IMG/VR virus record: IMGVR_UViG_3300022913_000005
Location: 1 to 29,581 of that record
Strand: one strand, 5' to 3'
DNA length: 29,581 nucleotides
Source: a virus
Of the stretch, positions 13,430 through 29,581 are shown in pieces; position 1 is the stretch's first letter; every line of letters begins with the position of its first letter. A program made the position numbers and the translations under genes. The notes beneath the pieces were generated by a model that was not told the DNA's origin, searched no databases, and saw only the letters and a program-made list of their open reading frames with translations.

Positions 13430-13878
13430 TTCTTAGCCCCCTTAAAAAGATCAGTTACTGAGCTAGATGAAGGCGTTGCCACCTTCTTCTCAGGACGACC
13501 TTTAGAACCTTTCGAAGAGTCTTCGTATAAGAATTTAGCTGCTGTTACATTACCTTGTTCAGCTTGCTCAAGCAGCTTCTTTTTCCCTAACGAAGCATCC
13601 CTCTTCTTCATATCATCTCGCCATTGTTTTAGACCCCTGATATTTCTCTCAGGTAGTCCGTTCATGAACCAGTCCAAAGTACACAGTTTTTCCCAATGAA
13701 CCATATTACCAACAATGGTAAGGGCTGCTTCGTACTCATCTGTGCTTGCCATGTATATCTCATACACGGATTGATAATCCCCGTAAGATTCATGCTTGAG
13801 TGTGTAAGGGGCTTCCTTGTTCCACTCAGCAAACAACTTTTGCGTTAGCATTATGTTATTTTTTCCACGTAATGACAT
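13426..13878 (-). CDS. Putative terminase small subunit
   Basis: 150 aa. The helical middle region (LDWFMNGLPERNIRGLKQW, then a Lys-rich helix) and the C-terminal linker with KGSKGRPEKK resemble small terminases of short-tailed phages, which recognise the packaging site and hand DNA to the large subunit two genes downstream. The start is chosen at ATG 13878-13876, with GAGG 7 nt upstream. A GTG one codon earlier (13881) is possible. The start overlaps the tailspike stop. There is no canonical HTH I can be sure of, so the call rests on pattern plus position. Confidence 0.6.
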   Translation of the reverse strand: MSLRGKNNIMLTQKLFAEWNKEAPYTLKHESYGDYQSVYEIYMASTDEYEAALTIVGNMVHWEKLCTLDWFMNGLPERNIRGLKQWRDDMKKRDASLGKKKLLEQAEQGNVTAAKFLYEDSSKGSKGRPEKKVATPSSSSVTDLFKGAKK

Positions 13879-15662
13879 CACACCACCTCGGCTATCACTA
13901 ACTTGCTGAACTCCGCAGCGCTTGTCAGGGTGATATTACCACCTGTGTTCTGAGTTAGGACAACGCTTACCGAATCACCTTCATTTAAGTTCAAAGGTTC
14001 TGATGTTTGGATTGAAAAATCACCAGTGGATGATGTCGATTTCTGAAATCTAACGAGTTCAGAGCCATTCACCCTGATTACTAAATCGTACTTTGAGTTC
14101 ACATTATCTGCTCCATGACGTAACCTAGCAGTAACTACAACCCTTCTTTTCGTTTTCGAAACGTATTCATAGCTACCTGCATTGAATTCACCTTGGCTAT
14201 CAGTGATAACATTTGCGAATTCCACCACAGTAGCTACTCCGTTAGGAATTACTTGAGCATTAGGGCTAACAGAGGTGTAAGCTTTATCTGCTGTTGATAT
14301 AAACGAATCAGATACATCATTAACTTCTCCACTTGCGAAAGTACCTCGAACCCTAGTATCCGTGAATATATTTGTATCCACAGAGCTACCAGCATTGATT
14401 GCGAAGTTGGCATTTGGAGAGTCGTACACTTGGTTATTTACAAAAGTATTACCAGAAGGTAAGCTTGCTCCAGAGTTATCCTCTGTCCCAACTCCATAAG
14501 AAGTAGTCAATGAGTCATTGTTTGGGTTCACATCATATACTAGGTTACTTGCAAAAAGATTACCTTCTGCTGGCAATCCCACAGTCTGTGATCCAAATAC
14601 GCCAACTCCATAACTTCTTGGGGATTTCACCACATTGTTCGCTATGATGTTGTAAGAGCCACCGTTAACTATCTTAACACCTGCCGATAGGCAGTTATTT
14701 AAAACATTCTGCGAGATATTACAGGCTTGACCAAAACAGTCAATACCTTCGCCTACATTAGTAATAATGTTATCTGTTACGGAATGAGAAGAACTGGTTG
14801 GGTGTTGTATGTTTATACCATCTGTCTGATACCCATACAAAGCTTCAAAATTAGCACCAACGTTTATATTATATATCCTGTTTCCAGATACAATACAACC
14901 AAAAGAAGGTTCAGCTCCTACTCGATTATCATCCATTGATATACCAGTGAGTTGCCCTCCACTTATAACATCATCTGTGAAGAAATCGTGTATTTTGTTA
15001 TCTCTGAATTCACTGTTAACAGAAGAATCAACTCGTAGTCCAATAGACTTGGCAAAGTTGAAAATAGTACAGTCTATTATCTTCACACGATCAGCATCTC
15101 GTACAGCAAGGGGTGTTGTGGTTATCCTGTCATTAGTTGTGCTATCTGGTCTTATAGTAGCGCCCCTCAGCGTTACATCCGAAGCACTCACAAGAAGAAC
15201 TGTCCCATCAATAGAATCAAACACGCCATCTGTTCTGTCAAATGACGTGGTATCTGCGAGAATCTCAAAAGCTCCAGATAGCTCAGTACCAGATGTATCC
15301 ATTATCACACGGCTTCTTAAGAAGAAGACACCACCTTGAGAGTGTGGTGATTTACCTCTAACCGCAGCTTGTAAAGGAAGGGTATCATCTGTGATACCAT
15401 CGCCTACCGCCCCAACTTCTTTTACGTCGAAGCTTGAAGATACTAGTATGAACTCATAGCCTTGGTTGTTGGAAAGTCTTGGCTCTCCGAGATCAGATGG
15501 TGACTGAGAAGGGGTAATCGTATTACCAGTGTAGGCCCAATGAGATCCACCTCCATCCCCTTGGTTATAATAGCCTTCTGTTCTCACGGTGAAGCCAGAA
15601 GGGGAAGACACGGGTATCTTACCATTTGCTATGAAATTTTGTGTAGTAGTCCACCCTTTCAT
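13878..15662 (-). CDS. Tailspike with right-handed beta-helix (pectate-lyase-3 type)
   Basis: 594 aa receptor-binding/depolymerase candidate. Residues 79-100 carry the classic start of Pectate_lyase_3 folds (DVKEVGAVGDGITDDTLPLQ), preceded by a GYYNQGDGGGSHW motif common in phage tailspikes. Residues about 100-430 are a long run of beta-helix rungs with many N-x-I/V and G-N repeats. The C-terminal part (about 455-594, ending SAAEFSKLVIAEVV) looks like a beta-sandwich trimerisation or sugar-binding domain. It probably cleaves or binds surface polysaccharide. Catalytic residues cannot be assigned by eye. It is the third gene of a fibre cassette. Confidence 0.85.
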   Translation of the reverse strand: MKGWTTTQNFIANGKIPVSSPSGFTVRTEGYYNQGDGGGSHWAYTGNTITPSQSPSDLGEPRLSNNQGYEFILVSSSFDVKEVGAVGDGITDDTLPLQAAVRGKSPHSQGGVFFLRSRVIMDTSGTELSGAFEILADTTSFDRTDGVFDSIDGTVLLVSASDVTLRGATIRPDSTTNDRITTTPLAVRDADRVKIIDCTIFNFAKSIGLRVDSSVNSEFRDNKIHDFFTDDVISGGQLTGISMDDNRVGAEPSFGCIVSGNRIYNINVGANFEALYGYQTDGINIQHPTSSSHSVTDNIITNVGEGIDCFGQACNISQNVLNNCLSAGVKIVNGGSYNIIANNVVKSPRSYGVGVFGSQTVGLPAEGNLFASNLVYDVNPNNDSLTTSYGVGTEDNSGASLPSGNTFVNNQVYDSPNANFAINAGSSVDTNIFTDTRVRGTFASGEVNDVSDSFISTADKAYTSVSPNAQVIPNGVATVVEFANVITDSQGEFNAGSYEYVSKTKRRVVVTARLRHGADNVNSKYDLVIRVNGSELVRFQKSTSSTGDFSIQTSEPLNLNEGDSVSVVLTQNTGGNITLTSAAEFSKLVIAEVV

Positions 15663-16435
15663 TAGTACTTAACCTCGAAATAAACTGTAGTATCTGCACT
15701 AGGATTACCTACTAAATAAGCACCTGTTGATACATCAAAAATCTTTATATTGAATTGACCGTTCGTACCACCAGTTACCTTACTAGGTGCTTTACATAGA
15801 TAAGAGTCAGGTGCTGCTGTTGTCATGTACGCAACAGGAACAGGGTCTATACCTGTCTTTGCATCGATACCTGCTACTGTTATCTTCAAATCAGGAGCTG
15901 CGTAAGAGTACGCAAACACACCATTAGTAGGAGATCTTTCTTCAAGAACAACGTTACCTGCTACGTCTATTGTGACCGTCCCAGATGCCCATACACTGAC
16001 GTTATCGACACCTTCAATGGCTTCCATACGAGGCTCTCTGAACTCAGCAGAACCTCCTGAATCTGTTACTATGCCACAAACTATACTCATACTTTCTGAG
16101 GCAGGTGTGTGGTCTTCTTTGACTGTGTACACAAGTTCGTAACTCTTCCACTCAAAACTGTCAATTCGTTGCTCTGCTACGAGGGAAGTCTCGCTGGGGT
16201 AGTCTATGAAGATACCTGCATCTGTGTCTGTGTCGCCAGACGTAGAAAGCAGCCTTGCTTCTACCCTGAATCGGAATGTTTGACCAGCTTTAACAACTTT
16301 AGTTAAACGTTTATAAGCTTGGTCTCCTATACCGCCAGAAGTCTCTAATGTATAGCTAGCGTTTGTTGAAACGGAGCCGCCACCAGATGTAGTGTCTTCC
16401 CATGTTTCCCATGTTCTGTCAATAACTACACCCAT
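15662..16435 (-). CDS. Accessory tail fibre / carbohydrate-binding-like protein
   Basis: 257 aa, predicted all-beta, rich in Thr, Gly, Val and Ser. Residues 1-140 have a jelly-roll-like pattern (TFRFRVEARLLSTSGDTD, then RIDSFEWKSYELVYTVK and an EFREPRME segment near 130) like carbohydrate-binding modules that pack two beta sheets. Residues 145-257 form a second beta domain. It is translationally linked to the GDPD fibre upstream and the tailspike downstream by one-base overlaps. Probably a virion adhesin component. No enzymatic motif is visible. Confidence 0.6.
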   Translation of the reverse strand: MGVVIDRTWETWEDTTSGGGSVSTNASYTLETSGGIGDQAYKRLTKVVKAGQTFRFRVEARLLSTSGDTDTDAGIFIDYPSETSLVAEQRIDSFEWKSYELVYTVKEDHTPASESMSIVCGIVTDSGGSAEFREPRMEAIEGVDNVSVWASGTVTIDVAGNVVLEERSPTNGVFAYSYAAPDLKITVAGIDAKTGIDPVPVAYMTTAAPDSYLCKAPSKVTGGTNGQFNIKIFDVSTGAYLVGNPSADTTVYFEVKY

Positions 16436-17640
16436 TATAAACCTCTCCTGTCAAAATTAATGTTTCGATCACATATCATACGAACACACCCTTGGTTGTA
16501 CAGTGAGATGGCTTCTTCTTTCTTGTTTATAGTCCAAGCCATAAGACCTAGGCCAGCGTCGAGGATCTGTTGTGTGAATGTAGGATTCTGTATTAAAGTA
16601 GTCTTGTTGTACAGGAGATCGTTTATACCTGCACTTCTTGCAGCTTGTATGTTACCAGCGATATCTGTTGAGTCTACTAACCAACCTAAAACTACACGAG
16701 CATCTAGGTTACGTAATATCTGAAGATCTGTCAATATAAAGGACTGGAAAGTGCATTGCTCTAGGAGCTTGTTGTCCTTGATAACATTGTACAGGTCAGT
16801 TACATCTGAAGCAGATCTTCGGTTCTTTATCTCTGGGTAAAAATACAAACGAGACTGTTTTGCATACAACAAGAAATCATCTAATCGTGTTATACGAAGA
16901 GGAGCATATCCTGTTGAAGAAGCTGCTGTGTATTGTAAAGTATCTATGTAAGAACTATCTAAAGAGGTAAATGTCCCTGTACCATCCGTAAGGGCATCTA
17001 CAGTGGCGTCGTGAAATAAGTACCAAACACCATCTGCGCTGATACTGCAATCACACTCCAGTGAGTCAGCCCCTTGGCTGAAGGATTTACTTAGAGATAG
17101 TAAGGTGTTTTCAAAACCAATATCTCGGAAACCCCTGTGGGCATTAACCTCAGGAGCTGTCCTAAGTGTATAAGGAGAAGTGTCCTCATCTACATTTGTT
17201 ACTAAACCACCCTCTATGATAATGTAAGTACCTTCTGGGTACGTCTGATCAAGGATGAATGTGTTATCGTCCTGTACAATGTACTCAACACCTTTAACTA
17301 GTTGTCGAGAATCGATCACGCCATCGGATATATGAATAGTTGCTGCATCTACATTAACTAGTGAAACAACCTCTGTCTGACCTGCTGTAAGTTCTTGTGT
17401 ATCTCTGGTGACGAATGTACCATTTTCGATATCTACTAGATCTTGTAGACGTAGTGGCTCTGAACTAGAGATAGGCTGTGGTAAGTTGATGATACGATTA
17501 CTGTTCATATCGATCAGATCTTCCATCTGATTTGGACTAGTACCATCTCTATCTAGCATGGTATTGATGCTTTGCTGTATCTTTTCTAGTTCAGCATTTA
17601 TAGCTCTGACAGTTGCTACTGTATTGCGTCCGTATCTCAT
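16435..17640 (-). CDS. Tail fibre with glycerophosphodiester phosphodiesterase (GDPD) domain
   Basis: 401 aa. Residues 1-75 resemble the attachment end of short-tailed phage fibres (AINAELEKIQQSINTML, then MNSNRIINLPQPISSSEPL). Residues 164-401 are a complete GDPD TIM barrel: HRG at 168-170, ENT at 177-179, ExD at 195-197, HD at 210-211, PEIK with Glu270, and a C-terminal MAWTINKKEEAISLYNQG followed by RMICDR. All expected metal and acid/base residues are present. GDPD enzymes hydrolyse glycerol-phosphodiester bonds. On a virion this domain probably degrades a surface polymer with phosphodiester linkages. The N-terminal attachment role is inferred from the pattern, the enzyme call is strong. 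Confidence 0.9.
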   Translation of the reverse strand: MRYGRNTVATVRAINAELEKIQQSINTMLDRDGTSPNQMEDLIDMNSNRIINLPQPISSSEPLRLQDLVDIENGTFVTRDTQELTAGQTEVVSLVNVDAATIHISDGVIDSRQLVKGVEYIVQDDNTFILDQTYPEGTYIIIEGGLVTNVDEDTSPYTLRTAPEVNAHRGFRDIGFENTLLSLSKSFSQGADSLECDCSISADGVWYLFHDATVDALTDGTGTFTSLDSSYIDTLQYTAASSTGYAPLRITRLDDFLLYAKQSRLYFYPEIKNRRSASDVTDLYNVIKDNKLLEQCTFQSFILTDLQILRNLDARVVLGWLVDSTDIAGNIQAARSAGINDLLYNKTTLIQNPTFTQQILDAGLGLMAWTINKKEEAISLYNQGCVRMICDRNINFDRRGL

Positions 17641-22095: not shown

Positions 22096-22296
22096 ATGTC
22101 GAGCATTAAACACGCTTTAGAAACATTCATACACGCATCCTTCATAGAGAAATTGTTCCTGTTTGTAGTAGGTGTTCTTATATGGGGTGCGTTGTTTGTA
22201 CTTGTAACGGTAGTTAAAATACTATCATCATTCTTACCAGTGCTTGTAGTTATAGCGATTTGGTACATATTTTTTAGGAAAACAAATGGAAAATAA
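22096..22296 (+). CDS. Small two-helix membrane protein (66 aa)
   Basis: 66 aa. Two adjoining membrane segments (about 19-41 and 43-60: LFLFVVGVLIWGALFVLVTV and FLPVLVVIAIWYIFF) with a short basic C-terminus (RKTNGK). The end overlaps the next gene by 11 bases. The ribosome site is weak (GGGAT), so it may be coupled to upstream translation. Holin-like size, but no direct evidence. Confidence 0.6.
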   Translation: MSSIKHALETFIHASFIEKLFLFVVGVLIWGALFVLVTVVKILSSFLPVLVVIAIWYIFFRKTNGK

Positions 22297-22648
22297 AACA
22301 TTAGTAGCAGTTTACGGTAGTTTACGCAACGGTCTAGGAAATCATAGATTGCTTGTTGGTCAAGAGTTCTTAGGTCAATCCGTAGTACAGGGCTTTAACC
22401 TCCATGTGTACTGTTCAGGTTTCCCAGCCATTACACAAGGGGATCACTCGGTATTAACTGAGGTGTACGCTGTGGATGCACCTTGTATGCGTTCTTTAGA
22501 TGGTTTGGAGGGATACCCAAGTTTCTATAACCGTACAGAAGTACAAACAACTTACGGTAAGGCTTGGATATATTTCATGAGTCCTGATGAAGTCCAAGGT
22601 ACTGAACTTATCGAAGATGGTGATTGGGTTAAGTACAAACGTGCTTAG
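22286..22648 (+). CDS. Gamma-glutamylcyclotransferase-like (GGCT/AIG2) protein
   Basis: 120 aa. Residues 8-14 carry the family signature VAVYGSLR, a loop that binds the gamma-glutamyl group. Residues 70-78 (SLDGLEGYP) hold the family's catalytic Glu (Glu75). Length is right for a compact GGCT domain. Members convert gamma-glutamyl amino acids or gamma-glutamyl amines to 5-oxoproline plus the free amine. AGGAA ribosome site; the gene starts inside the preceding membrane gene. Its closeness to the amidoligase/glutaminase operon suggests it trims or recycles a gamma-glutamyl product of that pathway. Confidence 0.88.
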   Translation: MENKTLVAVYGSLRNGLGNHRLLVGQEFLGQSVVQGFNLHVYCSGFPAITQGDHSVLTEVYAVDAPCMRSLDGLEGYPSFYNRTEVQTTYGKAWIYFMSPDEVQGTELIEDGDWVKYKRA

Positions 22649-22758
22649 TGTACTCAGTGTACTATGATTTGTTAAGTTCAGGTTAGTGATTAGGTTAGTG
22701 AACTGACTGGAAACTTAAGAGATCATTAATTAGACAACATGAACTAGGAAAAAGTTCC
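22647..22758 (+). promoter_or_regulatory. Leader of the amidoligase operon with direct repeats
   Basis: The 110-base gap before the 518-aa gene contains AGTGTACT twice (22647-22654 and 22657-22664) and AGGTTAGTGA twice (22680-22689 and 22692-22701, 12-bp period). The second pair is flanked by AGTTCA/TGAACT. I do not see a clear sigma-70 promoter. It is a likely site of operon control. Confidence 0.45.
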
Positions 22759-24315
22759 ATGATTAATAAAAAAACTTCAGAATTGGATACTACAAGGTTC
22801 AATGAACTGCTTGAATTATCTAAAATGGTCATAGATGCACGCTACAGAAATGTACATAAACCTACACCAGATGTGCATGGAAGTGTGGCGATAAGACATC
22901 AACGAGCTATAAATGATCTAAAAGCTGAGCATGTAGGTAAGATGTGCTTCATGACACTTGATAGCGATCTCAATGTGCAGAAGAAGCAAAGAAGCGCTCC
23001 TTGTTGGGGTTCGTACACTATATGTACAACAGGTTCAGCGAATCCTTCGTATCTAGTATATCCTGTACTAAGCACAGGTGATGCTACTGCTGATGCAAAG
23101 ATGCGAGAATATATTGAGCTCTTGTACACCCTTCCTTTGATGCAACAAGTCTTAGTAGACTCTTCTGGGTCTGCTTATTACAGGGGTTTCCACTTGTTCA
23201 ATCTTCGTGCATCTGGGGACGTTTGCATGTTAGCTTACCACTTACTCCGTGGATTGTACGAAGGTGCTCACCAGAAGCCTAAAGAGTTCGGGCAACACAT
23301 GAGTAAGTACAGTTTCAGCTCCTTTCAGGGGATCAGCTCTCTGGTTAACTTCCTGTATGAGTCACGACAGTGGTTCAATCTAGGACATTCGTTCCTTCCA
23401 AACATTATGGAAACAGAACAGATGAACTCTGTTGCGATAACACTGTTGTTTGGATTCAAAGAAGTACTATCATCGTTCACTGAGACGGGGCTGTACAAGC
23501 CGAACGGATACCCTAGTATGGTAAGTCGTCTTGTGGATGGCTACTCCAGTGATGGGGCACAACTACACGCTGGTATTCAGAAAGTGTTCAATGAGCAGTA
23601 CAGTTCTCTGTTACAGTTAGATACTTTTGATATCACGAAAGCTGCTGATCAAGTTGTTATGAAAAGCTACGATTGCGGTGGTTCTTACAGTAACACTAGA
23701 GTGTACACAACGTCTGACAGAATGTTACCATATGTGAACCGTCCACATAACTGCTTCGGGGGTATGGTACGGGCTGATACTTTCTTCGGATTAGCTGATG
23801 ATGAGAGCATCCTTTGTATCCAGTACCCTGTCCCTGAGATGACACCTGATGACGTGATTGAAGTGTTACTGATGTTACCTATAATCAAGGTGCATTGCTT
23901 CAACAGAACACTACAGGATGTACGAGAGAAGGGTTTCCTGTTCGATACTACAACGAACGTAATAGAGATGATGTTGTGTCTATTCAATATAAGATACACA
24001 ATGCACTCAGCTAGTAATCCACTTGGCATACCTGATCCTTTGGTTCTTTTTAAGGAGCCAGCTAACCCAAGTTCAATTCAATATGAACAGCATGGTATGT
24101 GGGAAGCAGACTCCCCTGTTGGCGATGATGACAGACAGTACATGTCCCTTGGAGATCCAGAAGAAACAGATATGACGTTCTTTAATCTTAGAGGGTATCC
24201 AAAAGGCGTTTATGAGTACACAGATGAACGTAATATGCTTGGATCAGCAGCCTCAAGAAAAGCAAAAGCTAAACTACAAAATTTATTTCAAGAACTTCAG
24301 GAGAGTAAACAATGA
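22759..24315 (+). CDS. Unknown 518-aa protein heading the amidoligase operon
   Basis: 518 aa, soluble, mixed alpha/beta with many Tyr, Ser and Cys. Visible features: a helical N-terminus (1-60), a Tyr/Gly-rich segment about 130-150 (VLVDSSGSAYYRGFHLFN), a PHNCFGGM segment near 333, and an acidic linker before a Lys-rich C-terminal helix (SRKAKAKLQNLFQELQESKQ). I recognise no known domain. The last codons overlap the glutaminase start (ATGA at 24312-24315), a strong sign of joint expression and possibly a shared complex. It could be the acceptor/substrate protein or a structural partner of the ligases. Confidence 0.8.
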   Translation: MINKKTSELDTTRFNELLELSKMVIDARYRNVHKPTPDVHGSVAIRHQRAINDLKAEHVGKMCFMTLDSDLNVQKKQRSAPCWGSYTICTTGSANPSYLVYPVLSTGDATADAKMREYIELLYTLPLMQQVLVDSSGSAYYRGFHLFNLRASGDVCMLAYHLLRGLYEGAHQKPKEFGQHMSKYSFSSFQGISSLVNFLYESRQWFNLGHSFLPNIMETEQMNSVAITLLFGFKEVLSSFTETGLYKPNGYPSMVSRLVDGYSSDGAQLHAGIQKVFNEQYSSLLQLDTFDITKAADQVVMKSYDCGGSYSNTRVYTTSDRMLPYVNRPHNCFGGMVRADTFFGLADDESILCIQYPVPEMTPDDVIEVLLMLPIIKVHCFNRTLQDVREKGFLFDTTTNVIEMMLCLFNIRYTMHSASNPLGIPDPLVLFKEPANPSSIQYEQHGMWEADSPVGDDDRQYMSLGDPEETDMTFFNLRGYPKGVYEYTDERNMLGSAASRKAKAKLQNLFQELQESKQ

Positions 24316-25031
24316 AAGTCCTAGTAATAGGTAACAACAACGTACTAGTTAACTGGTTAGCTAAGCGATTCCATGTAGTATGTTTCGCAAGTGCAGGTGA
24401 AGTCCTCAAACGTATGAGTTTCACAGAAGATATCCACGGAGTCGTGTACCAAGGTGGTGCTGATATATCACCTACATGGTACAGCCAGAAACGACACAAG
24501 CAAACACGTTGCTTAGATTCTACAAGACGTGAGGATGATGAAGCTGAGTTGTACTGGAACCTAGTATCCAATAAAAGCATCCCTCATATTGGAATCTGTC
24601 GTGGTGCCCAGTTCCTAGCAGTTAATAACGGTGCGGATATGTACCAGCACTGTGAGGGTCATACGGATGAACACCTCATAGTCACGGCTGATCCAACTAG
24701 TAAGATCATGACAGCAAGTAGCACCCATCATCAAATGGTAGATATCTCACCTGTTCGTAGTAATGAAGACTTCAGATTGATTGCATGGGCTGAGGATAAA
24801 GCTACAGGTCTTGAAAAAATGCCTAAGGATGATGCAACTAGTGATGCACCTATCCCTTGTGCAACTAATAAAGATCCTGAGATCTTTGAATTCAAAGACA
24901 CAGCTACGTTATGTATACAAGGACACCCTGAGTACACAAACGTAGAAAAAGAATACAGTGAGTACTGCCTTGATTTAATTGAAGCGAGAGTAAAGTACTT
25001 CAAAGAACAGAACGAAACAGTAGGAGCGTAG
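24312..25031 (+). CDS. Class I glutamine amidotransferase-like / gamma-glutamyl hydrolase (peptidase C26, PuuD-like)
   Basis: 239 aa. Triad residues are all present: nucleophile Cys96 in GICRG (94-98), His205 and Glu207 in QGHPEY. Other family marks are YQGGADISP (46-54), an R-x-DD-x-E block (73-79) and SSTHHQM (136-142). The E-x-C-x-G neighbourhood and the ADISP motif point to the PuuD/gamma-glutamyl-hydrolase branch, which cleaves gamma-glutamyl amides, instead of a dedicated synthase glutaminase. It overlaps the 518-aa gene and abuts the class II glutaminase. In the pathway it may remove a gamma-glutamyl group or supply ammonia. Confidence 0.9.
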   Translation: MKVLVIGNNNVLVNWLAKRFHVVCFASAGEVLKRMSFTEDIHGVVYQGGADISPTWYSQKRHKQTRCLDSTRREDDEAELYWNLVSNKSIPHIGICRGAQFLAVNNGADMYQHCEGHTDEHLIVTADPTSKIMTASSTHHQMVDISPVRSNEDFRLIAWAEDKATGLEKMPKDDATSDAPIPCATNKDPEIFEFKDTATLCIQGHPEYTNVEKEYSEYCLDLIEARVKYFKEQNETVGA

Positions 25032-25032
25032 T

Positions 25033-26250
25033 ATGTGTGGTTTAGTAGGTATAATTGGCGACGTTAACAGCGTAGCTAGTAGGAAGATGTTCACAACGAT
25101 GTTATTCTTAGATACGTTGCGTGGTGAAGACAGCACTGGTGTGTACGCTATCAACTACAAGGATAACGAAGTCAACATCCTAAAGGACGCTTTACAAGCA
25201 CCTGACTTCATACAAGAGAAGCCTTACGAAGATATGATGCGTGTATCTAATAGATACTCAGCACTCATAGGTCACAACCGAGCAGCCACTGTAGGGGTTG
25301 TGAATAAACGTAATGCACACCCCTTCGAACATGGTGATATCACTATGGTACATAATGGTACGTTGCGTAATGAGCACATGCTTGATACATACAAAGACTT
25401 CTATGTAGATAGTGAGATGCTGTGTGGTGACTTCAACAAGAACGGTATGAAAAATACCATCATGAAAGTGAACGGTGCTTTCGCTCTGATATGGCACGAT
25501 AAGTCCGATAACACTGTCAATATCCTTCGTAATAGTGAACGTCCATTAAGCTACGCTGTGTTTCAAGCACAGAGTTCAGCCAATGTACTGATAGGTAGCC
25601 CTTTCCTAGCTGTAGCATCTGAGCCTTGGATGATGACGGTTGCTGCTAGTCGTTCAGGTATCAAGATGATCAGTCCAGATATCAAGTCAGTGAAGGTAGG
25701 TGAACACGTCAAGATTGATATTGATGGAATGTACTTAGAGCGTGATGCTGATATGTTACTAACTCATACTGAAACGGAGGAAGTCCCTCTTTTTACGAGT
25801 ACTACCCACGTGGGTGGGAGAACTTGGACTGGTAAAAACGTAGAGTACATCCACTCCACTAAAAGCAAGGCTAACAAAACTAAGAAACTTCCTGCATCTG
25901 GCAATACAGCCAGTACTCAGTGTAGCGTGTCTGGCCTTGCTGATAATATCATGTACAGTTTTGTCCCTATGTGGGCTTATGAGCACCACGGTAAGTACAT
26001 TGCTACAGGCACTGCGACATGTGGACGATACGTAAGATGTATCGTAGAGAAGGATGTCCACGACCAGATCATTCAACCCAGTAACCGTGCCTTACAAAAC
26101 AATATCCAACGTATCACAGCTCCAAAGGTAGGTAGTATAACAGAATCACCATCACAGAACGGTGGTAAGCAAGTAAAAAGTTACTTGATACTCGATTCAA
26201 CAATAACCGACAAGGCTGTCATTGCAAAAAAGAAACAGCGTGTGATCTAA
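25033..26250 (+). CDS. Class II glutamine amidotransferase (Ntn glutaminase), 0-frame product
   Basis: 405 aa. N-terminal Cys2 (MCGLVGIIGD) is the nucleophile after Met removal. Supporting motifs are LRGEDSTG (29-36), GHNRAAT (80-86), AHPF (95-98) and VHNGTL (106-111), all in register with the PurF/GlmS-type glutaminase domain, about residues 1-200. There is no attached synthase or transferase; residues 210-405 are an unassigned tail with several Cys/His (near 295-340). It therefore hydrolyses glutamine to provide ammonia to a separate ligase, probably one of the amidoligases downstream. The gene ends in a -1 frameshift signal, and part of the product is probably extended (see 26226-26492). 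Confidence 0.92.
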   Translation: MCGLVGIIGDVNSVASRKMFTTMLFLDTLRGEDSTGVYAINYKDNEVNILKDALQAPDFIQEKPYEDMMRVSNRYSALIGHNRAATVGVVNKRNAHPFEHGDITMVHNGTLRNEHMLDTYKDFYVDSEMLCGDFNKNGMKNTIMKVNGAFALIWHDKSDNTVNILRNSERPLSYAVFQAQSSANVLIGSPFLAVASEPWMMTVAASRSGIKMISPDIKSVKVGEHVKIDIDGMYLERDADMLLTHTETEEVPLFTSTTHVGGRTWTGKNVEYIHSTKSKANKTKKLPASGNTASTQCSVSGLADNIMYSFVPMWAYEHHGKYIATGTATCGRYVRCIVEKDVHDQIIQPSNRALQNNIQRITAPKVGSITESPSQNGGKQVKSYLILDSTITDKAVIAKKKQRVI

Positions 26251-26270
26251 CTTACGAGGAGGATCACACG
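26226..26270 (+). promoter_or_regulatory. Programmed -1 ribosomal frameshift signal
   Basis: The slippery heptamer A AAA AAG (26226-26232) lies in the correct register of the class II glutaminase frame (GCA AAA AAG, codons 398-400). A 6-nt spacer AAACAG is followed by a perfect 9-bp stem CGTGTGATC (26239-26247) / GATCACACG (26262-26270) with a 14-nt loop. The 0-frame stop TAA is the first three bases of the loop. This is the architecture of the E. coli dnaX site (same heptamer). The loop also holds GAGGAGG, so the hairpin could alternatively mask a ribosome site. Confidence 0.85.
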
Positions 26271-26492
26271 GATGTACCATTCGATGCAGATGAATCTCGA
26301 ATAGGTTATAGAGGTGTTCATCTCTCTGAGAAAGAATACCGAGAAGCTACTAAACATGGTTGTGCTTCCTGTACAGAACAGGCAGAGAACCTAGAAGATG
26401 ATCAACTTGTATGGATAGACAGTAACTCTTTCCTATGCGAAACATGCTGGGAACGAGAGTACGATGATATGTTCTATGCATTAATAAATTAA
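26232..26492 (+). CDS. -1 frame extension of the glutaminase: zinc-ribbon-like module
   Basis: After a -1 slip at 26226-26232 the frame reads on from GAA at 26232 for 86 codons to TAA at 26490-26492, giving a 486-aa fusion (400 + 86). The extension begins ETACDLTYEEDHTD and is acidic. It holds two CxxC pairs (CASC at 44-47 and CETC at 69-72 of the extension), 21 residues apart, as in zinc ribbons. Upstream, this frame is closed by TAA near 26170, and between that stop and the slip site there is no ATG, GTG or TTG. The only ATG in the open frame is 7 codons from its end. So a standalone gene is unlikely. An alternative is a genuine indel or assembly error near the ATG at 26272. Confidence 0.75.
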   Translation, partial: ETACDLTYEEDHTDVPFDADESRIGYRGVHLSEKEYREATKHGCASCTEQAENLEDDQLVWIDSNSFLCETCWEREYDDMFYALIN

Positions 26493-26504
26493 TTCGGAGT
26501 TATT

Positions 26505-27305
26505 ATGAAATTTAATAATCAAGAAGTCCTTGTGGGCGCTGACCCTGAGGTGTTCATAAAGAAAGGTGGTTCGTTTGTATCTGCCTTTGGATTAGTACAG
26601 GGTAACAAGACAGAACCTTCTCCTGTAAAGGATGGTAGTGTTCAGGTAGATGGAATGGCTTTAGAGTTCAACATCAACCCAGCAGCTAACGTTCAGGAAT
26701 TTGTACATAACGTAGAGAGTGTGTACTCTCAGCTACGTGAACAAGTACCCCCTGACTATGAGTTCTCTGACCAAGCAACAGCTTTGTTCAACTTTAACTA
26801 CTTCAGTGAGAGAAGTACAGAAGAAGTTCAGTTAGGCTGTGAAGCTGATTACAACGCTTACACAGGTACAGAGAACACTAAACCAGACCAGAAGAAACCT
26901 ATCCGTACAGCAGGTGGTCATATCCATATTGGCTGGCAAGAATGGGGCTTCTTAGATGAAGAACATATCGAGAAGTGTAGACGTGTTGTAAAAGCATGTG
27001 ACTTCTACTTAGGATTGCCTAGTATCTTGTATGACTCAGACACTGATCGAAGAAGTATGTACGGACAAGCAGGTTGCTTTCGTCCAAAGACATATGGTGT
27101 AGAGTACAGAACACTAAGTAATGCTTGGATACATAGTACAGAACTTCTTGAGTTCGTGTACAGTAGTATAGAGCAGATGATGGCTAATGAAAGCTCTTGG
27201 GATCAGATGTTCGAAACAGATATACAAGATGTTATTAACACATCAGACACAACTAAAGCTCTTGAGCTGATTAACAAGTTCAATATACCTGTGTTTGGAG
27301 GTTAG
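26505..27305 (+). CDS. phiEco32-like COOH-NH2 ligase type 2 (amidoligase)
   Basis: 266 aa ATP-dependent ligase of the glutamine-synthetase-like fold. Motifs in order: GADPEVF (11-17), DGMALEFNINPA (49-60), GGHIHIGW (137-144), DRRSMYGQAG (181-190) and GVEYRTLSN (198-206). Acidic and His residues in the first three would bind the metal-ATP complex; the Arg of the last would contact phosphate or carboxylate. This is the phage family named after phiEco32. It joins a carboxylate to an amine with ATP. GGAGT lies just upstream of the ATG and the gene is one base from the next. Substrates are unknown. All expected motifs are present. Confidence 0.9.
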   Translation: MKFNNQEVLVGADPEVFIKKGGSFVSAFGLVQGNKTEPSPVKDGSVQVDGMALEFNINPAANVQEFVHNVESVYSQLREQVPPDYEFSDQATALFNFNYFSERSTEEVQLGCEADYNAYTGTENTKPDQKKPIRTAGGHIHIGWQEWGFLDEEHIEKCRRVVKACDFYLGLPSILYDSDTDRRSMYGQAGCFRPKTYGVEYRTLSNAWIHSTELLEFVYSSIEQMMANESSWDQMFETDIQDVINTSDTTKALELINKFNIPVFGG

Positions 27306-27306
27306 T

Positions 27307-28146
27307 ATGCGGTTTGATACTATTGATGATTACATAAGTCGATACACTGGAACACTTATTACAGTTGGCGGTGAGCTGCTCTCTGTCCAGAATGTACGTG
27401 GACGAGTAAGTAACCCTAAGTTCATTGTGCAGACGAGAGCTGGTGACGTACGAGAAGTACACCCTTTCGGTGTTGATGAAGAAGAGACTGTCCTTGACTT
27501 CAACAGGTCTTTCTACCACATACATGATGGTCGTTTGTACTACATGACAGCTAACCCAGAACGTCAGTGGAAGCAGGGGTTCAGGGCTAATAAGTACAGA
27601 TACACAACAGCGGTGACTGACCCTCGGAAAATACAAACAGGGGGTGGTAACGGATTCCGTGTTTGGGACTTGTTCAGATCTATGGTTGCCCCTTTGTACA
27701 ATACAGTAGGTTCAGTCCAAGGAATCGCTTATGTAGTATCTGATTCGTTAGCAGTGGATCTAGAAGGTAATGTGTTCTTCAAGGCAGCCTTTGTGGGTGT
27801 TGTTCAAGGCTCAAGTGTTGCACTTCATAAAGAGGGACAGTGGATAAAAGACCACTTAGAACGTCTTGGTATCGAATACAAAGTTAATAACAGATCTAAG
27901 AAAGCTTTGACCATGAAGTTATCTGTTCCTCAACTAGAGGCTGCTGGCGTAGATAGTGATAAGATCGACCAGATAATAAATCTGATTATTGAACGAGATA
28001 ACAGGGAGCTACAGCGACAACGAGAAGCTAATGAAGCAGCCTTCGCTGCGTTCAGTGCAGGGGCAGCCCCTGCTGGAACAGCAGCAGACATAAGACGTAC
28101 ATTCAGAACAATGGATTTTACAGCACCACCACCACCAAGAGGTTAA
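27307..28146 (+). CDS. Unknown 279-aa protein between two amidoligases
   Basis: The start is ATG at 27307 with GGAGG 6 nt upstream, better than a TTG at 27295 in the same frame. The first half is beta-rich (ITVGGELLSVQNVRGRV; KFIVQTRAGDVREVHPF). The region 115-165 contains VWDLFRSMVAPLYNTVG and an aliphatic strand. The C-terminal 70 residues are helical and Ala-rich, ending in a polyproline run (APPPPRG). No catalytic motif is obvious. A free Pro/Gly tail might be an acceptor for ligation or a flexible binding tail. The gene lies in the tight operon, one base after and one base before its neighbours. Confidence 0.75.
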   Translation: MRFDTIDDYISRYTGTLITVGGELLSVQNVRGRVSNPKFIVQTRAGDVREVHPFGVDEEETVLDFNRSFYHIHDGRLYYMTANPERQWKQGFRANKYRYTTAVTDPRKIQTGGGNGFRVWDLFRSMVAPLYNTVGSVQGIAYVVSDSLAVDLEGNVFFKAAFVGVVQGSSVALHKEGQWIKDHLERLGIEYKVNNRSKKALTMKLSVPQLEAAGVDSDKIDQIINLIIERDNRELQRQREANEAAFAAFSAGAAPAGTAADIRRTFRTMDFTAPPPPRG

Positions 28147-28147
28147 C

Positions 28148-29020
28148 ATGAACAGAGATCTGAAAACAACGTACATCCATGAAATACTACGAGGTGTCAA
28201 TAAGCAACCTCAGAGTTTACAAACGAGTACAAAGATTCAAACGAACTGCATGATCGGGTTAGAGATTGAGCTAGAGTCATGTGTAACAGATGATGTGGAG
28301 CGATTCAGTACCCAGACATTCAATAATTACTGGAGAACGACATACGATGGTTCTCTACGTGGAGGGTACGGAGTTGAGTTCGTCCTGAGTAAGCCACGAT
28401 CAGGAGCTGGTGCGAGTACAGCCCTAAAAGCTTTCGATAAACTCATGAAAGATTTACCTAACAAACCAACTACAAGTCAATCTACTAGTACACATGTACA
28501 CTTAGATATGACTAATACTAGCCTGTACGATGTATTGAAGTTCTTGTTCTTGTACAGAATATTCGAGACAGCCCTTATCAAATCATGTGGTAGCACTCGT
28601 GTTAGTAATCTGTACTGTATGAGCTTTCAAGAGGCTAATAAACCATTCATGGAGTTAGCCCGTGTCTTAAAAGATCCTAGTAACTTATCACAGTACAACA
28701 TGAACGAACACAAATACGGTGCTTGTAACCTAGCTGCACTAACACAGTACGGCAGCTTAGAGTTTCGCTCTAAAGGTGGTGTTACAACAGCACAAGAAGT
28801 TATCGACTGGGTTAACACACTGACAAGTATCAAGATATTTGCTGACTCTCTTGAGTCTTTCGAGGATGTGTTATCGTTAGCTTCTCGTGAACATGCAGAT
28901 ATAGTTCAGACAGTGTTCGGTGAGTACGCGGATTCAGTTGCACAGTTCTTCCAGATAGAAGATATGTGGGAGGCGTGTATGGATATCCAGTACGTAATCA
29001 ATGAAGCATGGGAGGCATAA
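28148..29020 (+). CDS. Second amidoligase (Amidoligase_2 family)
   Basis: 290 aa. Motifs of the Amidoligase_2 branch of the glutamine-synthetase-like ligases: GLEIELES (37-44), DGSLRGGYGVEFVLSKP (67-83), THVHLDM (115-121), KYGACNLAAL (189-198) and SLEFRSKGG (203-211). This branch is distinct from the type 2 family encoded two genes earlier, so the phage makes two different ligases. They catalyse ATP-driven amide formation, often attaching amino acids to peptides or carboxylates. The stop overlaps the next start (TAATG). Substrate unknown. Confidence 0.88.
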   Translation: MNRDLKTTYIHEILRGVNKQPQSLQTSTKIQTNCMIGLEIELESCVTDDVERFSTQTFNNYWRTTYDGSLRGGYGVEFVLSKPRSGAGASTALKAFDKLMKDLPNKPTTSQSTSTHVHLDMTNTSLYDVLKFLFLYRIFETALIKSCGSTRVSNLYCMSFQEANKPFMELARVLKDPSNLSQYNMNEHKYGACNLAALTQYGSLEFRSKGGVTTAQEVIDWVNTLTSIKIFADSLESFEDVLSLASREHADIVQTVFGEYADSVAQFFQIEDMWEACMDIQYVINEAWEA

Positions 29021-29581
29021 TGCCATACATACTACCATACAAGAACGGCTCTCGAAGTGCTAAGGTACTCTCTGAGTCACTAGGATTTAAGCAAGTAAAA
29101 CGGGAACGTAGTCGTTTCTCTGCACTGACAAGATCAGGACACCCAAAGAAAGTTATTAACTGGGGTAGTTCTGAGTTACCACAGCATATGCAAAATACTA
29201 TCATCATTAATGAACCTGATGCTGTTAAAACAGCCTGTAACAAGCTGGAAGCTTTCAGGAGTCTCGATGGGGAGGTAAGTATCCCAGAGTACAGTACAGA
29301 ACGTGAGGATGCTGTACAGTGGCTACAGGATGGTCAGAAGGTTGTTGAGCGTCACCTATTACGAGGTAACTCAGGTAGAGGTATCCGTATTGTCGATTCT
29401 GTCGATGACCTACAAGATGCTCCTTTGTACGTTAAGTACATCAAGAAGACTGCTGAGTACAGAATACATGTGTTCAAAGGGGAAGCTTTCGATATCCAAG
29501 AGAAGCGTCGTAATCGTGATGTACAAGATGATCAGGTTAACTGGCAGGTACGCAATACAGACGGTGGCTTTATCTTTGCCA
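29020..29581 (+). CDS. ATP-grasp ligase (5' part; right edge cuts it)
   Basis: 187 codons visible. Residues 70-105 form the pre-ATP-grasp region (NKLEAFRSLDGEVSIPEYST). A nucleotide-binding Gly-rich loop follows, HLLRGNSGRG at 112-121, then LYVKYIKKTAEYRIHVF (136-152) and DIQEKRR (158-164), the order expected for RimK-like/phage ATP-grasp enzymes. The metal-binding Glu/Asn-x-Asn residues would lie beyond the edge. It activates a carboxylate as acyl phosphate for attack by an amine. As the fourth ligase/glutaminase type of the operon it completes a peptide-bond-forming toolkit. Family is clear, substrate unknown. Confidence 0.85.
   Translation, partial: MPYILPYKNGSRSAKVLSESLGFKQVKRERSRFSALTRSGHPKKVINWGSSELPQHMQNTIIINEPDAVKTACNKLEAFRSLDGEVSIPEYSTEREDAVQWLQDGQKVVERHLLRGNSGRGIRIVDSVDDLQDAPLYVKYIKKTAEYRIHVFKGEAFDIQEKRRNRDVQDDQVNWQVRNTDGGFIFA

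Follow-up and report, generated by a model that had tools for sequence, protein, structure and literature searches.

Several podoviruses carry a compact set of genes for gamma-glutamyl and amide chemistry. In the sections available to us, Duhaime et al. 2017 (PMC5498523) call this set a "peptidoglycan modification cassette" of seven genes and name many of the podoviruses considered below; with reference to Hardies 2013 and Iyer 2009, they hypothesize a role in superinfection exclusion; the available sections of PMC10580990 repeat the same cell-wall idea for OM43 phages. No experimental demonstration of a cassette product was found in the literature examined, part of which was available as excerpts. 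Here, we analyze a cassette of this type in IMG/VR virus record IMGVR_UViG_3300022913_000005, whose 29,581 bases in total form the stretch of DNA referred to as the window. The plus-strand region at 22286-29581 encodes eight proteins, comprising six recognized enzymes and two unnamed proteins (518 and 283 amino acids), and the last of the eight genes is cut by the contig end.

The window encodes the same classes as the RIO-1/PSA-HP1 cassette, namely, GGCT, glutamine amidotransferase, two amidoligases, and ATP-grasp (PMC5498523, as excerpted). Its class-II glutaminase, COOH-NH2 ligase, Amidoligase_2, and ATP-grasp genes are clustered and co-directional, as in podovirus cassettes. Where at least one gamma-glutamyl-cleaving enzyme is expected, the window has two, a Peptidase_C26 family protein (C26) and a GGACT-type cyclotransferase (GGACT). 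The window differs from RIO-1/PSA-HP1 in carrying both of these, with GGACT first and an orphan 518-amino-acid gene ahead of C26, and in the long C-terminal extension of its 283-amino-acid BETW protein, a conserved component described below. Gene order is otherwise mostly constant among cassettes; the class-II glutaminase gene lies behind the amidoligase gene in PaP3, phiEco32, and Bjorn, whereas that of the window lies ahead of the COOH-NH2 ligase gene. In RIO-1, PA11, PaP3, CW02, and phiEco32, the cassette is located just upstream of the primase/helicase, whereas the window contig ends before any primase gene.

The window cassette is not a new system, as such cassettes are widespread and already named. 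By tblastn, 316 of 50,697 phage records contain a match to the COOH-NH2 ligase, 319 to the amidoligase, and 306 to the ATP-grasp protein, all below 60% identity to the window proteins. Annotated phages with the cassette include phiEco32, PaP3, PA11, CW02, RIO-1, Bjorn, phiM6, and Zobellviridae phages from oysters, and where hosts are named in the best-represented groups, they are Gram negative. A preliminary description of the window had pointed to amidoligase and ATP-grasp sets in phiEco32-like phages, and phiEco32 indeed has a closely similar gene set, with GGACT and no C26. Thus, about 300 sequenced phage records contain the cassette, among them those of the laboratory-tractable phiEco32, PaP3, and LUZ24-like phages, and the literature has considered it for years (PMC5498523, as excerpted, and works cited therein). 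A scan of bacterial genome contigs yielded only five cassette loci, all in metagenome-assembled genomes and possibly on phage contigs. The record of Vibrio phage V07 (MT135025; 349331 bases) has an ATP-grasp gene at 305823-306368; other cassette-bearing Vibrio phages are ∼50 kb, and the V07 record may be a joined assembly.

Distribution of C26 and GGACT

Loci were taken from IMG/VR, 81 with a COOH-NH2 ligase bait and a further 80 with each of two additional seeds (some shared), and iterated profiles were run across all open reading frames (ORFs) of the fetched loci. The 255 loci were reduced to 182 by collapsing COOH-NH2 ligases at 90% identity and to 128 by requiring 5 kb or more of flanking sequence on each side. 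The window is among the 54 of 182 loci left out for having less than 5 kb on one side; it was added back for the C26/GGACT table and the simulations, and L001, a piece of the window, was left out of the comparative counts. The 128 loci contained the class-II glutaminase (128), COOH-NH2 ligase (128, as the bait), Amidoligase_2 (127), ATP-grasp (127), BETW (124), C26 (93), UP (87; a family described below), and GGACT (66). Because the bait defines the locus set, only the nonbait counts are informative.

At first tabulation, 59 of the 128 loci contained C26 only, 34 both enzymes, 32 GGACT only, and 3 neither (Fisher P = 9e-9, which ignores kinship). The three apparent exceptions served as a test of the pattern: all three records have GGACT elsewhere, and none has C26. 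Whole-record searches with curated Pfam models found C26 in 0/32 GGACT-only records. As a positive control, the same searches covered 49 of the 59 C26-only loci and retrieved C26 in 49/49 of these records and GGACT in 1/49. The corrected table, which includes the window, thus contains 58 loci with C26 only, 36 with both, 35 with GGACT only, and 0 with neither (n = 129).

Mapped onto a tree built quickly from one gene, the presence of C26 requires at least 9 changes and that of GGACT at least 12. Among paired branches, whenever the second trait differs, its change is always opposite in direction. When independent gain and loss were simulated on the tree with fitted rates, the mean number of loci with neither enzyme was 11 to 21, and no retained draw had zero (0/651, 0/207, and 0/35); these simulations depend on a single, quickly built tree, which was rooted at its midpoint and has one long branch (L095). 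Taken together, the data point to substitution of C26 and GGACT, which are unrelated enzymes, for each other, a result that is new here. With this "C26 or GGACT" rule, an enzyme swap directly tests which chemical step matters.

The family membership of C26 bears on what the two enzymes share. The window class-I protein scores 53 bits against PF07722 (cutoff of 20.5). In a search of PDB sequences, the C26 family profile placed Lin1909, SpuA, and PuuD at the top (E = 2e-14 to SpuA and 3e-10 to PuuD), above carbamoyl-phosphate and GMP synthetases. The SpuA structure is presumably 7d4r, an entry titled "probable glutamine amidotransferase." GxCRG and HPE motifs are found in 92/94 and 93/94 family members, respectively. 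The window C26 enzyme is thus predicted to be a PuuD/SpuA-type gamma-glutamyl hydrolase. The preliminary description counted two glutaminases in this region; the class-II domain stands, while the class-I enzyme groups instead with the gamma-glutamyl-amide hydrolases.

The products of GGACT-type cyclotransferases include 5-oxoproline but not ammonia. Therefore, if C26 is replaceable by GGACT, what the two enzymes have in common would be cleavage of a gamma-glutamyl amide rather than ammonia feeding, and the relatives and GxCRG motif of C26 fit such a shared activity. The cassette seems equipped for both the formation and the removal of glutamyl amide bonds, with the removal step kept in 129/129 loci. 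The coexistence of ligating and gamma-glutamyl-cleaving activities was already proposed for the window; both are predicted from its genes, and the proposal is strengthened by the presence of at least one gamma-glutamyl-cleaving enzyme in every cassette examined.

The constant presence of C26 or GGACT, together with two or more glutamine/gamma-glutamyl hydrolases in one operon, would also be expected if the enzymes only tapped host glutamine and gamma-glutamyl pools (glutathione and gamma-glutamyl-polyamines) for glutamate and nitrogen. Such scavenging leaves three conserved ATP-dependent ligase-type enzymes (127 to 128 of 128 loci) unexplained, and we regard it as improbable.

Ligases and the conserved proteins BETW and UP

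The ATP-grasp family profile is nearest to RimK-type structures, with the best matches among RimK/alpha-L-glutamate ligases (E = 1e-12), followed by LysX (E = 9e-5). It also reaches the graspetide ligases CdnC (E = 4e-7) and AMdnB (E = 1e-6), as would be expected if the cassette produced a small graspetide-like ribosomal peptide from a precursor of its own. Across the 182 nonredundant loci and the window, however, no family of small ORFs is widespread (8 loci in the largest cluster), and a precursor-like ORF is not evident in the window, although a fast-evolving precursor could escape such a search. A graspetide is thus disfavored, being the least probable of the products considered. Searches of PDB sequences with the amidoligase and COOH-NH2 ligase retrieved nothing useful, and no gene fusions between cassette members, sought as a guide to partners, were found.

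The ATP-grasp genes vary in several loci. Those of L006 (11474-13360), L058, and L063 encode ∼600 amino acids, compared with ∼250 elsewhere, and the Pfam match in L006 covers the ATP-grasp part only. A second ATP-grasp-like gene occurs between the class-I and class-II glutaminase genes in several loci (e.g., L009, L019, L025, L033, L035, L040, and L050).

BETW lies between both amidoligases, in the order COOH-NH2 ligase-BETW-Amidoligase_2, in 173/175 nonredundant loci where BETW and the amidoligase were both found. It usually overlaps or nearly abuts its neighbors, with median gaps of -8 and -14 nucleotides in the first locus set. All aligned members (72/72) match PHROG 11055, whose function is not annotated; the match of the window BETW is weak (E = 9e-4), and its C-terminal extension is longer than in most relatives. 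The family varies fast (mean column identity of 17%). A BETW model (pLDDT of 79) has a predicted small beta-barrel near the N terminus, with weak fold matches of the SH3/Tudor/KOW type (best Z of 4.7) from which no function was drawn; Foldseek gave no match at an E of ≤0.001, and the best E in a PDB sequence search was 0.31. A tblastn search of the 50,697 phage records with the window BETW and 518-amino-acid protein gave no match, and the BETW of phage O4 matched 25 phage records and 0 plasmid records.

The second family, UP (phrog_34254/27195), is usually found directly upstream of the class-I gene and has invariant Cys and Arg and nearly invariant Glu and His residues. A representative model (pLDDT of 82) has no fold match at an E of ≤0.001 (best Z of 4.2). 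UP matches to designed repeat proteins in the PDB (best E of 1e-4 over 18 residues) were read as chance. In the window, the usual position of UP is held by the 518-amino-acid protein, which has no match in Pfam, PHROG, NCBIfam, or phage records. The UP profile gives an E of 0.73 on this protein, and the alignment to an earlier profile, at 6 bits, included a Cys and an "LR...E" motif; we treat it as an orphan, with UP homology not established. The placement of BETW between both amidoligases and of UP usually ahead of the class-I gene is new here and indicates proteins that a reconstitution should include. With the C26/GGACT rule, these two extra components make the cassette more testable than before.

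The RimK likeness and the position of BETW are also what one would expect if the ATP-grasp protein and amidoligases tagged a protein of the host or the phage, such as the ribosome, RNA polymerase, or BETW itself, with C26 or GGACT trimming or reversing the tag. A rapidly varying protein between the ligases fits this idea. Unlike in the RimK/LysX/MptN systems, however, no ribosomal S6-like or LysW-like acceptor was found. BETW as a LysW-like C-terminal carrier, a type of small acidic acceptor ending in a conserved Glu, was rejected, as the C termini of 177 BETW proteins are not conserved (last residue A in 33, L in 25, V in 20, and K in 20). Furthermore, the substrates of characterized C26 and GGACT relatives are small gamma-glutamyl compounds. 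We consider protein modification unlikely.

Cell location and timing

Hydropathy analysis found no membrane-like segment in the complete cassette proteins of the window; among relatives, such segments were found in 9/177 amidoligases and in at most 2 members of any other family. With few or no membrane segments in eight families, the chemistry of the cassette is probably cytosolic.

Timing is available for PaP3, in which the cassette genes include ORF42, 43, and 45-48, with the unnamed ORF49-50 just upstream. According to the available sections of PMC4707531, microarray classes place ORF49-71 as early and ORF32-48 as middle, while an inhibitor test places ORF22-56 all as middle. A late role in virion proteins or assembly was rejected as the default, given that ORF42-50 are early/middle and grouped with replication genes (PMC4707531, as excerpted). 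By analogy with this one relative, the cassette is likely expressed before the structural genes. The excerpted text of the HH109 transcriptome paper does not mention cassette terms.

These observations bear on the published proposal, in which cassette enzymes modify the peptide side chains of the infected cell's peptidoglycan (by amidation or extra linkages) and block superinfection, with GGACT as a degradation enzyme. The proposal was made for RIO-1-like phages with the same genes (PMC5498523) and repeated for OM43 phages (PMC10580990), both in the sections available to us. The Gram-negative hosts are compatible with it, cytosolic ligases could act on wall precursors, and the early/middle timing in PaP3 fits (PMC4707531, as excerpted). 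Against it, the literature examined, in part as excerpts, contains no experiment, and the interchange of C26 and GGACT points to gamma-glutamyl-amide cleavage, which is not needed for wall amidation by itself. No recurrent Mur-ligase, transport, or membrane gene was noticed in the annotated regions viewed, which was not a systematic test. We judge wall modification to be doubtful on balance, while taking it seriously.

In relatives, the cassette adjoins replication genes, which would suit DNA base hypermodification or counter-restriction by addition of amino acids or amides. The modified nucleobase suggested in the preliminary description is disfavored, however, since RsaI, HpaI, EcoRV, SmaI, and HaeIII digest the DNA of tf, a phage with the cassette (PMC3517423; the paper was not designed to test modification). 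DNA of phage Delta, of the PaP3 group, is cut by BamHI (PMC8540360). In the named regions viewed, no recurrent base-activating enzyme was noticed. Dense modification of phage DNA is thus very improbable.

A proposed ligate-then-remove pathway

As the best explanation, held with somewhat less than even confidence, we propose that the conserved core plus C26 or GGACT forms a cytosolic early/middle pathway in which a gamma-glutamyl group is first ligated and subsequently taken off. The core comprises the class-II glutaminase, COOH-NH2 ligase, BETW, Amidoligase_2, and RimK-like ATP-grasp protein, and its partner is at least one of C26 and GGACT. The ligases would use ATP to attach glutamate or a gamma-glutamyl group to an amine-bearing acceptor, with the class-II glutaminase supplying ammonia, or hydrolyzing glutamine, for the amide-forming step. 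BETW, through its predicted barrel, may hold the ligases or the acceptor together. Finally, C26 or GGACT would strip the gamma-glutamyl group, freeing glutamate or 5-oxoproline.

In such a pathway, the gamma-glutamyl group would be a temporary handle, comparable to those of the Puu polyamine pathway and butirosin biosynthesis. The Puu pathway follows a logic of ligating and then removing a gamma-glutamyl group. The Puu/Spu pathway shares a C26 family hydrolase (PuuD and SpuA) with the window cassette; in contrast, by Pfam, the window ligases are not PuuA-like glutamine synthetases, and no oxidase or dehydrogenase is identified among the cassette proteins of the window. For butirosin, the ATP-grasp ligase BtrJ adds, and the AIG2-fold cyclotransferase BtrG removes, a gamma-glutamyl protecting group. 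Unlike in butirosin biosynthesis, no acyl carrier protein or aminoglycoside genes were seen in the window, and the likeness to BtrG is presumed from general background. The composition, order, and co-occurrence of the cassette genes and the substitution of the two cleaving enzymes are observed directly; we infer that the ligate-then-remove scheme is the most economical mechanism.

Several points weigh against this reading. The phylogeny-aware paired sign test was underpowered (5 supported pairs; median P of 0.5), and C26 and GGACT occur together in 36/129 loci and hence are not exclusive. Co-occurrence of the core arises partly by selection, as loci were fetched via the COOH-NH2 ligase. The structural evidence for the BETW barrel is weak (best Z of 4.7). 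A temporary handle would also imply a putative middle step; UP, with its invariant Cys and Arg, is only a guess for the enzyme of that step, is found in 87/128 loci, and is not shown in the window.

A more specific version of the ligate-then-remove pathway, possible yet rather doubtful, is a hitherto undescribed viral protecting-group chemistry. An amine acceptor presented by BETW would be gamma-glutamylated, altered, and then obligatorily deprotected by either of the two interchangeable enzymes, which would yield a phage-specific small molecule or cell-envelope modification during early/middle infection in many podovirus lineages of Gram-negative hosts.

Gene calls in the window

The preliminary description placed six gamma-glutamyl/amide enzymes at 22286-29581, and its interpretation of them is partly supported by the results above. 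The six enzymes themselves were confirmed, each by at least one curated profile (Pfam/PHROG) and by a leave-one-out profile built with the window excluded (E = 1e-37 to 1e-107). The claim of coupled starts holds for most junctions (24312/24315, 25031/25033, 27295/27305, 28146/28148, and 29008/29020) but not for two, which have gaps of 110 nucleotides behind the GGACT gene and 254 nucleotides ahead of the COOH-NH2 ligase gene. A pattern scan found no terminator-like site on the plus strand of 22286-29581.

All eight genes lie on the plus strand. The first (22286..22648) encodes the predicted GGACT/AIG2-like gamma-glutamyl(amine) cyclotransferase of 120 amino acids (PF06094, E = 1.5e-21; phrog_2520; leave-one-out E = 1e-37), whose best solved relative is YtfP (E = 1e-15). 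The stop of the 518-amino-acid orphan gene (22759..24315) overlaps the start of the C26 gene (24312..25031), which encodes a class-I glutamine amidotransferase fold of 239 amino acids, the predicted gamma-glutamyl-amide hydrolase (PF07722, E = 4e-14). Next is the class-II (N-terminal nucleophile [Ntn]) glutaminase domain protein of 405 amino acids (25033..26250; GATase_6 PF13522, E = 2.5e-16; phrog_4736, E = 1e-81; leave-one-out E = 1e-93). The COOH-NH2 ligase, a phiEco32-like amidoligase type 2 of 266 amino acids (26505..27305; PF14395, E = 4e-9; phrog_3815, E = 8e-86; leave-one-out E = 9e-107), precedes BETW (27295..28146; 283 amino acids; phrog_11055; leave-one-out E = 6e-20). The glutamate-cysteine-ligase-like Amidoligase_2 of 290 amino acids (28148..29020) exceeds the PF12224 cutoff (E = 9e-6; phrog_7469, E = 8e-49; leave-one-out E = 1e-67). 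The last gene (29008..29581), cut by the contig end, encodes the N-terminal 191 amino acids of the RimK-like ATP-grasp ligase (phrog_2599, E = 9e-54; leave-one-out E = 2e-75), a fragment that Pfam alone misses and PHROG detects. The MCG start and the GICRG, HPE, and LDGLEG motifs, which we take to be catalytic, are all present in the window sequences.

Pfam assigns only the glutaminase domain of the class-II protein, with its C-terminal part left without assignment. GlmS-type glucosamine synthesis was rejected, as the protein has no SIS isomerase domain by Pfam and scores far below the GlmS cutoff. In phiM6, a second class-II glutaminase-like gene (L007:9791-10897) lies behind the ATP-grasp gene.

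Start codons of the class-II glutaminase genes were placeable in 174 nonredundant genes (7 more were not placeable). In 21/174, an AUU or AUC codon stands just before the catalytic Cys, with no ATG, GTG, or TTG back to the upstream stop, and 19 of these 21 have a Shine-Dalgarno-like match (examples are in L048, L195, L199, L220, and L238). The RefSeq gene of phiEco32 is already annotated from ATT (L094:28522-28524, minus strand). These features suggest use of the rare start codons AUU and AUC, perhaps because the enzyme requires a Cys at its N terminus; a literature search for AUU starts found no paper.

Over its left two thirds, the window contains a minus-strand podovirus-type structural module with terminase, major head protein, and tail and internal virion proteins. 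The best matches of the terminase include RIO-1, PSA-HP1, and Zobellviridae phages (44 to 46% identity). Within this module, the minus-strand gene at 16435-17640 encodes a tail-fiber-like protein with a glycerophosphodiester phosphodiesterase domain (PF03009, E = 4e-23). It matches phrog_17587 at its N terminus and the tail fiber family phrog_16641 and lies next but one to a beta-helix spike (13878-15662).

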